Positions 44,906 to 48,262 of a stretch of 64,000 nucleotides of DNA are shown piece after piece. The stretch lies in contig NZ_CP107548.1 of the NCBI RefSeq assembly GCF_025836975.1, positions 1,612,001-1,676,000 of the forward strand. The letters run 5' to 3'. Position 1 is the stretch's first letter. Each line of letters opens with the position of its first letter. Both the position numbers and the translations under genes were made by a program. The notes under the pieces are model-generated. The model saw nothing but the letters and a program-made list of their open reading frames with translations, was not told where the DNA came from and made no database searches. The DNA is from Pollutimonas sp. M17 (GTDB taxonomy: Bacteria; Pseudomonadota; Gammaproteobacteria; Burkholderiales; Burkholderiaceae_B).

Positions 44906-46000
44906 ATGCTTCCATCTCCCGCTGAAAACACGTCCTTGCAGGCCATGCCTTTCGATGGAGGCGGGAATCGCGGATGTGAGGGGCTGGCGGCCATGTCGCC
45001 GGCAAATTTCGGCATCGTCATGGCCACCGGCATCGTTTCGCTGGCCGCCCACCTGCTGGGAAGAAGCACCATCGCGCAGGCGCTGTTCATGCTGAACAAC
45101 GTCCTGTTCGCGATACTGTGCGCCCTCAGCGTGCTGCGCGCCGTTCGCCATCCGCGTTCGTTCTTCGGCGACATGGCCGACCATCTGCGCGGCCCGGGCT
45201 TCTTCACGACCGTGGCGGCCACCGCCATCCTGGGCGGGCAGTACATGGTGCTGGCGAACGATGCGCGCGTGGGGTCCATCCTGTGGGCGGCGGCGTTGGC
45301 GCTGTGGTTCGGCCTGACCTATGCCATATTCACCATGCTGACCGTCAAGCGGGACAAGCCCACCCTGGATCGCGGCATCAATGGCGGATGGCTGCTTGCC
45401 GTGGTGGCGACGCAGTCGATAGCGGTTTCCAGCGCCTTGCTGGCGGCCACGACGGCGCAGCCGTACCGGCTGGAACTGAATTTCCTGGCGCTGTCGATGT
45501 GGCTGTGGGGCGGCATGCTGTATATCTGGATGATGTCGCTGATTTTCTACCGATACACGTATTTCCGCCTGTCCCCGGACGATCTGACTCCGCCGTACTG
45601 GATAAACATGGGAGCGATGGCCATCTCCACGCTGGCGGGATCCTTGCTGATCATAAACGCCTCGGATGCGCCGTATCTGGTTTCGTTGATGCCTTTCCTG
45701 AAGGGCTTCACGATTTTCTATTGGGCGACGGGCACGTGGTGGATACCGATGCTGCTTTTGCTGGGGGTGTGGCGTTATGTGTACAAGCGCTTTCCCTTGA
45801 GATATGACCCGCTGTACTGGGGGGCTGTTTTTCCGCTGGGAATGTATGCGGCCAGCACGTTCGAGATGAATCAGGCGATGGGTTTCAAGTTTCTGGCTTA
45901 TGTGCCGGGGGTGTTCTTTACTTTGGCCATCGTGGCGTGGACGTTGACGTTTCTGGGGTTGTTGATGCGCGTGGTCGGAGGGATTCGGCGGCGCAGCTGA
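44906..46000 (+). CDS. TehA/SLAC1 (TDT) family transporter or anion channel
   Basis: 364 residues with about ten hydrophobic segments, the TDT fold of TehA and plant SLAC1. It opens MSPANFGIVMATGIVS (typical first helix from about residue 30), with WWIPMLLLLGVWRY and YWGAVFPLGMYAAST in the late helices. Members export sulfite, dicarboxylates or anions; the substrate here is not clear. The first 28 residues look like a cytoplasmic extension; an alternative ATG at 44945 would shorten it and has slightly better spacing to a CAGG sequence. Divergent from prfB and convergent with the TRAP operon across a 980-base gap. Confidence 0.82.
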   Translation: MLPSPAENTSLQAMPFDGGGNRGCEGLAAMSPANFGIVMATGIVSLAAHLLGRSTIAQALFMLNNVLFAILCALSVLRAVRHPRSFFGDMADHLRGPGFFTTVAATAILGGQYMVLANDARVGSILWAAALALWFGLTYAIFTMLTVKRDKPTLDRGINGGWLLAVVATQSIAVSSALLAATTAQPYRLELNFLALSMWLWGGMLYIWMMSLIFYRYTYFRLSPDDLTPPYWINMGAMAISTLAGSLLIINASDAPYLVSLMPFLKGFTIFYWATGTWWIPMLLLLGVWRYVYKRFPLRYDPLYWGAVFPLGMYAASTFEMNQAMGFKFLAYVPGVFFTLAIVAWTLTFLGLLMRVVGGIRRRS

Positions 46001-46170
46001 TTGTCTGATTTATAGGCGTGTTTCAACAGCTTCTATCTCGTCGACAGGTAGTTAATTATTGGCTCTCTGGCGGAATTTAATCGATGGCCTGACTTCCAGT
46101 CTTGATGTGGCGAGTCGTTAACCTCGGTACGGTTTCTTCTTTTCGAGATGCCTTGCTTGTTCTTTAGACG
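46001..46170. other. non-coding stretch, nothing recognised
   Basis: Left part of the gap between the convergent TehA-like gene and dctM, before the first palindromic element. No terminator hairpin with a T tract, RNA or frame could be recognised. Confidence 0.4.
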
Positions 46171-46331
46171 TGGCTGGTGGGTTGCGGACCAGGCCGCCGT
46201 CCCCGTGACCGGTTCGGCGCGCAAGGCGCCGAACACCGCATCGCTTTGCTCGTCCGCCCATTCGGGCTTCCTTCGCCTACAGCTCGCTCGGCCCCGGAAG
46301 TCCGGCCGCCCGGCCCGCAGCCCACCAGCCA
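46171..46331. repeat. 161-bp palindromic element A
   Basis: The arms TGGCTGGTGGG-T-TGCGG (from 46171) and its complement (ending 46331) pair with one mismatch in the first 17 bases and continue imperfectly into GACC/GGCC. The core (46211-46296) starts with a hairpin, TTCGGCGC/GCGCCGAA, and includes TTGCTCGTCCGC and CCTTCGCCTAC. The same core, inverted and roughly 85% identical by eye, occurs in element B at 46614-46774, also 161 bp, but B has completely different arm sequences. Confidence 0.85.
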
Positions 46332-46613
46332 CTGCATAATGGAAAATTGATGCGTTGCCGGTATACAGCTATATGTTGTTGAACCCAAATATTCTTTGGA
46401 TGTAGGCATATAGAAGCTGACGTGCTTCTGTTGGTCGGAAAGATCCAAGCCGATATCCAAACGGCCCAATATGGAAATGCCCCGACGCCCGGCGCGGCCC
46501 GGCTGGCGGGCCGTGGCGGGCAAGCGTGCAACGTCCTCATACCTGCGTTCATCGATACTAGAATACCGGCGCACAGTCTCCCTCCAAACGGCCGTGCGTT
46601 CATACATTTCGCA
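46332..46613. other. spacer between the two palindromic elements
   Basis: About 280 bases. A minus-strand frame starting near 46601 runs through it and on into element A, about 145 codons, but has no ribosome-binding site and its second half merely translates the repeat. I do not call it a gene. A GC-rich imperfect dyad (GGCGCGGCCCGGCTGGCGGGCC region, 46490-46510) is visible. Confidence 0.4.
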
Positions 46614-46774
46614 GGCGCGGGGGTGCAAGGAGGGGGGAACGGGCCTTTGGGGCCGAGCGAGTCGTAGGCGAAGGGAGCACGTATGTGCGGACGAGCAAGG
46701 CGACGCGATGTTCGGCGCGCTGGGCGCCGAACCGGCCACGCGGGCCCGTTCCCCCCTCCTTGCACCCCCGCGCC
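46614..46774. repeat. 161-bp palindromic element B (inverted relative to A)
   Basis: The arms 46614-46645 and 46743-46774 are perfect 32-base inverted copies (left arm starts GGCGCGGGGGTGCAAGGAGG). The core lies between them in the opposite orientation to element A, with the same hairpin (GTTCGGCGC/GCGCCGAAC read on the minus strand) and the same CTCGTCCGC and CCTTCGCCTAC blocks. Equal length, conserved core and unrelated but self-matching arms define a family with element A. Confidence 0.88.
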
Positions 46775-46880
46775 GTGTAAAAAACGTGCGCCCCGCACCG
46801 AGTAAAAAAAATTGCAGCCATAGCGTGTAGAAACGCAGCGATACCGTGTAAAAAAACATCTGGCGCCGCCGGATAAAAAC
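46773..46880. repeat. degenerate 25-bp tandem array of CCGTGTAAAAAA units
   Basis: Units resembling CCGTGTAAAAAA start at 46773, 46798, 46823, 46844 and 46869 (CCGTGTA, CCGAGTA, GCGTGTAG, CCGTGTA, CCGGATA, each followed by an A tract), giving spacings of 25, 25, 21 and 25 bases. Between element B and the dctM terminator. On the minus strand each unit is a T tract followed by ACACGG. Function unknown. Confidence 0.6.
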
Positions 46881-46981: not shown

Positions 46982-48262
46982 TCAGAAGAACCCCAACTCC
47001 GGCAGCCACAACGATATCGCCGGCACATACGTCACCAAAACCAGGAACGCCAGCAAAATCGACAGCCAGGGCGTTGCCGCCCGCATCACCTGGCCTATCG
47101 TCATCTTCGTGATTCCCGCCGTCACGAACAGATTCAACCCTATTGGCGGCGTCACCATGCCGATCTCCAGGTTCACCACAATGATGATTCCCAGGTGCAC
47201 CGGATCGATCCCCAATTGCGTCGCAATCGGAAACAGAATCGGCGCAAGAATCAGGATGATCCCGGTCGGCTCCATGAACATTCCCGCGATAAGCAGCAGA
47301 ATGTTCACAACGATCAGGAACTGCCACGCCGCCATATCCCAGGCGACGATCTGTTCCGCGATTGCCTGCGGTATGCGCTCCGTCGTCAGCACATGCGCGA
47401 ACAGCAGTGCGTTGACGATGATGAACATCAGCATGATCGTCACTTTCGAGGCGTCCATCAGCACCTCTGGAACCTGCCGCATGCCGATGTCCCGGTACAC
47501 GAATACCGCCACGAAGAAGGCATAGACCGCCGCCACCGCCGCCGCCTCGGTCGGCGTGAAGATGCCCCCATAGATGCCGCCGAGAATGATGATGATCAGC
47601 ATCAGGCCCCAGATCGAATCGCGGCCCGCGACCAGCGCTTCCTTGAGCGATGCGCGCGGCTGGCGGGGCAGATTCTTGATGCGGGCCACAATGTATATCG
47701 CCAGCATCAGCAGGAAGCCCAGCAGCAGGCCCGGCATGACGCCCGCCATGAACAGCTTGCCCACCGACGTTTCCGTTGCCGCGCCGTATACCACCATCAC
47801 GATGGATGGCGGTATGAGGATGCCCAGCGTGCCGGCGTTGCAGATCACCCCCGCGGCGAATGACTGCGGATAGCCGGAACGCACCATCCCGGCAATCACA
47901 ATGGAGCCGACCGCAACCACCGTGGCGGGCGAGGAGCCGGACACGGCGGCGAACAGGCAGCAGGCCAGCACCGATGCGATGGCCAGGCCGCCGTGCAGAT
48001 GGCCCACGACCGCGATGGCGAAGCGGATCATGCGCTTGGCCACGCCGCCCGTGGTCATGAATGCGCCCGCCAGCACGAAGAAGGGAATGGCCATCAGCGT
48101 GAAATGCTCGGACGTCTCGAACATCTTCAGCGACAGCGAGGCCAGGGAGTCGTGGCCGAAAAGCAGTATGGTCAGTATGGACGAGAGGCCCAGCGAAACC
48201 GCCACGGGTATGCCCATGAACATGAACACGAAGAGCATGATGAAAAGGGCGCCTGTCGTCAT
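46982..48262 (-). CDS. dctM: TRAP transporter large permease (DctM)
   Basis: 426-residue membrane protein with about 12 helices, the sodium-driven translocating subunit of a tripartite ATP-independent importer. Typical segments are AAVSGSSPATVVAVGSI, NAGTLGILIPPSIVMVVYG, GGIFTPTEAAAVAAVYAF and LEIGMVTPPIGLNLFV. It overlaps dctQ by four bases (ATGA). The substrate is set by the binding protein DctP encoded upstream. It is the last gene of the operon; a clear terminator follows. Confidence 0.95.
   Translation of the reverse strand: MTTGALFIMLFVFMFMGIPVAVSLGLSSILTILLFGHDSLASLSLKMFETSEHFTLMAIPFFVLAGAFMTTGGVAKRMIRFAIAVVGHLHGGLAIASVLACCLFAAVSGSSPATVVAVGSIVIAGMVRSGYPQSFAAGVICNAGTLGILIPPSIVMVVYGAATETSVGKLFMAGVMPGLLLGFLLMLAIYIVARIKNLPRQPRASLKEALVAGRDSIWGLMLIIIILGGIYGGIFTPTEAAAVAAVYAFFVAVFVYRDIGMRQVPEVLMDASKVTIMLMFIIVNALLFAHVLTTERIPQAIAEQIVAWDMAAWQFLIVVNILLLIAGMFMEPTGIILILAPILFPIATQLGIDPVHLGIIIVVNLEIGMVTPPIGLNLFVTAGITKMTIGQVMRAATPWLSILLAFLVLVTYVPAISLWLPELGFF

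Follow-up and report, generated by a model that had tools for sequence, protein, structure and literature searches.

The locus lies in a 64,000-nt stretch of the Pollutimonas sp. M17 genome (contig NZ_CP107548.1, positions 1,612,001 to 1,676,000; hereafter the window). Between a SLAC1-type gene and dctM, which converge on it, we found a composite element made of two outward-facing modules, A and B, that flank a central spacer with a further hairpin. Its features are listed in Table 1.

Table 1. Layout of the composite element and its neighbouring genes (positions within the window)
Feature	Position	Strand	Remarks
Gene left of the composite, SLAC1-type	44906-46000	+	
Composite element	~46160..46790	no strand	two outward-facing modules flanking the central spacer
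Module A, type H1	46170..46332	-	folding strand is minus, reads outward (leftward)
Outer variable arm of A	46170..46199	-	3' arm on the folding strand; 26/30 paired with the inner arm, loop 103
Conserved 9-bp core hairpin of A	46212..46234	-	GTTCGGCGC..GCGCCGAAC
Small covarying hairpin of A	46256..46267	-	folding-strand sequence GCCC-GAAT-GGGC; loop G-N-A-B
Inner variable arm of A	46303..46332	-	5' arm on the folding strand; 26/30 paired
TGCAG boundary, conserved	46332..46336	-	at the folding-strand 5' end of module A
Central hairpin, type H2	46489..46522	no strand	GGCGCGGCCCG-GCTGG-CGGGCCGTGGC
Module B, type H1	46614..46774	+	folding strand is plus, reads outward (rightward)
Variable 5' arm of B	46614..46645	+	32/32 paired with the 3' arm, loop 97
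Small covarying hairpin of B	46677..46688	+	GCAC-GTAT-GTGC
Conserved 9-bp core hairpin of B	46710..46732	+	GTTCGGCGC..GCGCCGAAC
Variable 3' arm of B	46743..46774	+	32/32 paired
Outer A-rich degenerate repeats	46772..46856	+	CCGTGTAAAAAAC type, 3' of module B
Gene right of the composite, dctM	46982-48262	-	

The first-pass annotation had described A and B as two separate elements of 161 bp each. That length is correct for B, while A measures 163 bp, and the two belong to one composite, as its outward-facing halves with a third hairpin between them: copies elsewhere occur as inverted pairs or paired with a second module type, and A and B are therefore the ends of a single unit. Outward folding strands, third hairpin and second module type had likewise been overlooked. 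The inverted cores are 81% identical over 111 nt and 85% identical over the central 95 nt, in agreement with the value of about 85% given earlier, and each contains its own hairpin, as had been stated. The arms pair within each module, also as described, and those of A are unrelated in sequence to those of B (ungapped identity ≤54%). The claim that arms differ wholly holds for this pair but not always for the family, where the G-rich 5' arms of paralogues are in part similar. Folded as single-stranded RNA and compared with shuffled sequences, A and B gave z values of -6.8 and -12.0, respectively, much more stable than chance would produce.

A search of the 3.85-Mb M17 genome with the core returned about 15 full copies together with collapsed ones; the core is thus not limited to this locus, and every full copy of the A/B type (H1) has privately matching arms. 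In total, the genome holds about 20 composites built from two module types, H1 and H3. The latter was found at 15 places and has private arms of 17-27 bp as well as further variable stems. Since the H1 model, when run to connect the two types, did not detect H3, their kinship rests solely on a short shared motif. The H3 modules at L058-L072 and L114, the latter an H3+H3 composite, have several variable stems of their own (GCGGGGGCGTAAGAG...GAGTTCGCGC) and form an independent candidate structured family. The inner hairpin of one H3 module (L131, from G020) contains an extra GC-rich insertion (GCCGGGCCGCCCCAAGG...GCAGCGTGGGGGC), and a further composite, H3+H1, lies just outside the window, some 1.3 kb to the left of its start (G000:1610160-1610673).

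The order of parts within a unit is regular. Reading 5' to 3' from the composite centre, the variable H2 stem is followed by an A/C-rich leader with conserved motifs, TGCAG and a stem of about 30 bp with free sequence; the stem encloses a conserved core, in which G.A internal loops recur alongside the 9-bp hairpin, and is followed by CGTC and an A/C-rich, G-poor tail. On the folding strand, H2 precedes the module by about 108 nt, and its clearest copies form a perfect stem of 15-16 bp, free in sequence, with a loop that is mostly GCAGG. In 28 of 44 copies, the conserved leader motif (A)GCCAAGCA lies some 44 nt ahead of the module. Wherever two H1 modules lie close together, their folding strands point outward (27/27 pairs, 13 genomes). 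No gene was called inside the elements of the M17 genome, and the longest spacer read held only mechanical ORFs.

Several composites depart from this order. In the collapsed ones (L120, G000:1806807; L121, G000:2412257-2412474; L086), the outer halves of both modules are apparently fused at the shared GTTCGGCGC..GCGCCGAAC palindrome and the arms are unpaired, which is consistent with deletion between these short repeats. Short tandem repeats of about 20-30 bp, some with a CGTCAGAAGAA-type motif, lie directly outside the modules at L051, L083 and L008.

Covariation was assessed in an alignment (A1) of 44 H1 modules from the M17 and related genomes. Among the 45 pairs of the consensus, 33 showed compensatory double changes. 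Paired cells amounted to 93.5%, compared with 78.2% in shuffled alignments and about 38% in slid structures, and double-change cells numbered 256 versus 70 after shuffling, a value reached in 0 of 500 shuffles. The arms, about 30 bp long, pair privately in nearly every copy, with perfect matches over 25-32 bp in several, and their sequences differ even where cores are identical. When arm partners were ranked, 37 modules had their own partner at rank 1 of 45, with mean scores of 23.3 for self and 9.4 for cross pairings. The core covaries as well, both in its internal loops and in its small hairpin, whose stem occurs as GCCC/GGGC, GGCC/GGCC, GCAC/GTGC, GTCC/GGAC and GCGC/GCGC around a loop that was G-N-A-B in 44/44 aligned copies, never GNRA, and mostly GNA or GNAB in copies outside the alignment. 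The fold is kept while the letters of the stems change freely, and this pairing with free arm sequence recurs in distant genera, which upholds the earlier suggestion that structure rather than sequence is conserved. The accompanying idea that each insertion builds its own arms was not supported. Cores and inner arms are identical between L091 and L101, whose outer arms differ yet mostly still pair; because such identical-core paralogues, like copies retained at the same junction in several genomes, differ by paired changes, the arms drift in place.

The mismatches within the stems distinguish one strand from the other. On the outward strand of the H1 arms, GU exceeded AC by 47 to 11 and GA exceeded CT by 42 to 9, and GU outnumbered AC in 23 modules versus 3 (sign test, p=9e-5). 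The same asymmetry, predicted beforehand for the outward strand of H3, was borne out with 17 GU, 6 AC, 12 GA and 2 CT, and a per-module sign test of 9:2 (p 0.07) that is weaker taken alone. Copies from other genera, most of them unused earlier, gave 17 GU, 4 AC, 24 GA and 1 CT; in all these counts the copies are related and hence not fully independent. With RNA parameters, the outward strand was the more stable one in 44/44 copies. The tails are polarized in the same sense. Over the 80 nt outside H1, the folding strand contains 34% A, 31% C, 21% G and 14% T (tail consensus CGTCaaaAgAAac), and C exceeds G in 37 of 42 H1 tails and 16 of 17 H3 tails; 3' flanks of control genes showed no C/G skew. 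A strand-biased mutation process possibly contributes to both asymmetries. Homogenization of palindromes at the DNA level is strand-symmetric and therefore not the whole explanation of asymmetric mismatches. Taken together, the asymmetric mismatches, the more stable outward strand and the outward-facing close pairs point to selection acting on how one strand folds.

The modules occupy a particular kind of gene junction. With gene orientation taken from a simple, purpose-made gene caller based on codon usage, 45 of 56 resolvable sites lay between convergent genes and none between divergent genes, against a baseline of 6 convergent junctions among 44 in the window. The convergent location noted for A and B is thereby supported family-wide. 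Convergent, tandem and divergent sites numbered 15, 5 and 0 in the M17 genome, 14, 4 and 0 in named relatives, and 16, 2 and 0 in distant genera, where two copies were unclassified and another apparently lay within an ORF of a short contig. The neighbours are ordinary genes, such as hemB, dsbD, leuA, tldD and dihydrolipoyl dehydrogenase, in addition to SLAC1 and DctM in the window. In six genomes, both flanks of the hemB-dsbD junction were present with the element between them, and several further M17 junctions have counterparts in other genomes.

To describe how far the family extends, we combined an exact pattern of the H1 hairpin with a covariance model of the core (R1). The exact pattern, which matches just 27 of the 44 known copies, returned 34 stretches from 84,980 species genomes. 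Its carriers with a genus name were Pusillimonas, Pollutimonas, Candidimonas and Paracandidimonas; the rest were Alcaligenaceae isolates and metagenome-assembled genomes (MAGs) plus one other MAG, and all named carriers except one belong to the Alcaligenaceae. The pattern also occurs in a MAG labelled Candidatus Hebobacteria (L134), perhaps by contamination or transfer. Within the family, R1 found the core in 55 of 268 genomes, belonging to 16 of 43 genera. Across 399 order-wide genomes it added only four weak matches, under filters whose stringency may miss diverged copies. These four (G531, G386, G637, G040) were rejected as false, all being inside ORFs and devoid of pairing arms, and serve as negative controls. 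In this sample, the core was not credibly found elsewhere in the order. Plasmid and phage collections gave no match, nor did viral contigs when searched with the exact core hairpin.

Some copies bear signs of movement or conversion. Cores cluster partly by genome, and L003 and L004 are near-identical copies of 0.7-1 kb at two loci, i.e., recent duplicates; their spacers differ by a 315-bp insertion or deletion (L003, 1780-2095). CTAG-flanked terminal repeats (GCATTTTCGGTTCAGGTG) stand at both ends of three M17 composites and at one end of others. In the form (CTAG[A/C])GCATTTTCGGTTCAGGTGTTTAC, they bound units of 0.5-1 kb at both ends in L112, L113 and L117 and at one end in L103, L104 and L109. 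CTAG itself adjoins both ends of two M17 composites and one end of three others; neither CTAG nor the terminal repeats were detected in the remaining M17 composites or at the loci of other genomes. The genome-wise clusters, the L003/L004 duplication and the terminal repeats together imply that copies have moved or converted. The M17 genome encodes neither a Y1 transposase (PF01797) nor a DDE_3 transposase of the IS630 family (PF13358).

Considering the architecture, covariation, strand polarity, placement and distribution observed here, we propose that the modules are an undescribed family of structured nucleic acids that would act as a single strand, most likely RNA, and serve as a 3'-end or anti-read-through element (probability roughly 0.45). 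RNA is the probable form of the fold, with ssDNA a serious minority candidate; that the element limits read-through is a more tentative part of the proposal, drawn from sequence features. With two units back to back, almost always where genes converge, a polymerase reading through from one gene would encounter the far module in its folding form shortly before entering the opposite gene in antisense. The folded module and its rut-like tail, which is C-rich, G-poor and would resemble Rho-loading RNA, might then stop or process the read-through RNA by a Rho- or RNase-based route. Folding in the read-through transcript ahead of the antisense zone, next to a tail of this kind, suggests a symmetric guard against read-through. 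In its boldest form, which we regard as speculative, the proposal would describe a new class of structured RNA, whose units have stems of free sequence, occur as outward-facing pairs and form a symmetric guard between convergent genes throughout a bacterial family. Each unit would arise solely in transcripts that read through from the opposite gene, and would thereby prevent antisense transcription. Several points count against a functional reading of this kind. A Rho terminator usually needs no such elaborate conserved core, neutral insertions would equally avoid divergent junctions, and the partial likeness of copies within a genome indicates some spread or conversion.

The main rival, less probable than our proposal, is a non-autonomous element of the REP/BIME or MITE kind that moves or formerly moved. 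Its ends would fold as ssDNA, the structure being kept as the substrate of a recombinase or transposase acting in trans, and convergent junctions would simply be harmless sites. Dispersed copies with genome-wise core clusters, the near-identical L003/L004 pair and the CTAG-flanked repeats on some composites would all follow from it. Moreover, the G-N-A-B loop fits a stable loop of the DNA type rather than the RNA type, which would favour folded ssDNA over RNA, and ssDNA also tolerates T.G and G.A pairs. It is opposed by the lack of both transposases in the M17 genome, the restriction of the terminal repeat to part of the M17 copies, the small number of decayed copies and the long retention at the same junctions in several genera. 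An outward folding strand on either side of a shared centre, along with the conserved leader, could alternatively reflect two small RNA genes transcribed divergently from promoters located in the central spacer. This we judge improbable, as a genome may hold as many as about 20 copies that differ in their stems, and genes acting in trans would not be expected to track convergent junctions so tightly. Least probable are functionless long palindromes, their arms kept matched by template switching or conversion at the DNA level during replication. The perfect arms of several copies and the adjacency of the paired changes between L091 and L101 would fit such a process. Yet correction of this sort is strand-symmetric, and GU far exceeds AC, and GA far exceeds CT, in three data sets; the internal loops and small hairpins of the core covary too, H2 has a fixed position and a mostly fixed loop, and placement is specific.

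On the reading that we prefer, a structured single strand at gene ends, outward pairing and convergent placement offer a concrete proposal for how dense bacterial genomes stop transcription of one converging gene from running into the other. If the modules act as ssDNA, they would represent a novel type of folded DNA element that is maintained at the ends of genes. In either case, a strongly covarying nucleic-acid structure without an Rfam entry extends across 16 genera of one bacterial family, and its stems are free to change in sequence whereas loops and core remain fixed, a clean case for studying compensatory change.

The first-pass annotation had raised the possibility of an already catalogued repeat family. 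Rfam 15 gave no match above the gathering score for the element in the window or for 14 loci, and we found no description of such an element in the literature searched. The closest in setting is the Beta-proteobacterial repeat element (BRE) of Bordetella, a GC-rich intergenic repeat of about 90 bp (Hot et al. 2011, PMC3110155). Several BRE loci lie between convergent genes, with a copy number that varies per locus; tandem copies are a few bases apart, one copy is overlapped by the sRNAs BprJ1/BprJ2, one locus is beside lexA, and BRE is present in Comamonadaceae too (positions in Tohama I: 3605317-3605401 and 2208359-2208448; PMC3110155). Like BRE, the modules are intergenic, occur in the same bacterial family and often lie at convergent genes; they also have variable pairing arms and form outward pairs, neither of which is described for BRE. 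BRE might be the core of the present module, because this core, viewed apart from the variable arms, would resemble a repeat of about 90 bp. We found no module in the fetched flanks of lexA (about 1.5 kb where the contig allows) in 21 genomes with lexA, not necessarily including B. pertussis or B. bronchiseptica, and the exact H1 pattern, with its 27/44 sensitivity, returned no Bordetella. In contrast to the presence of BRE in Comamonadaceae, R1 under the filters used gave no credible match outside the family among the order-wide genomes sampled.

REP/BIME and RAYT-associated palindromes, including CGTC-tagged REPs, are 20-40 bp long with conserved stem sequence (PMC3733652, PMC2817692). The modules share with them inverted dimers, 3'-intergenic placement, a hairpin beside a CGTC motif and dispersed copies. 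They differ in their length of about 160 nt, free stem sequence, conserved core and a genome without Y1 transposase, and the resemblance is limited to layout. IS630-type MITEs have terminal inverted repeats at a CTAG/TA target; CTAG-flanked terminal repeats were detected on only part of the M17 composites, in a genome that lacks DDE_3. Intrinsic bidirectional terminators also place strong hairpins between convergent genes; unlike them, the present element is a conserved 160-nt module whose folding strand continues after the stem into an A/C-rich tail and has no T-run. In common with the structured noncoding RNA families of Rfam, the modules have covarying helices, conserved internal loops and one folding strand, with covariation beyond both shuffled and slid controls and a tolerance of wobble pairs that is specific to that strand.
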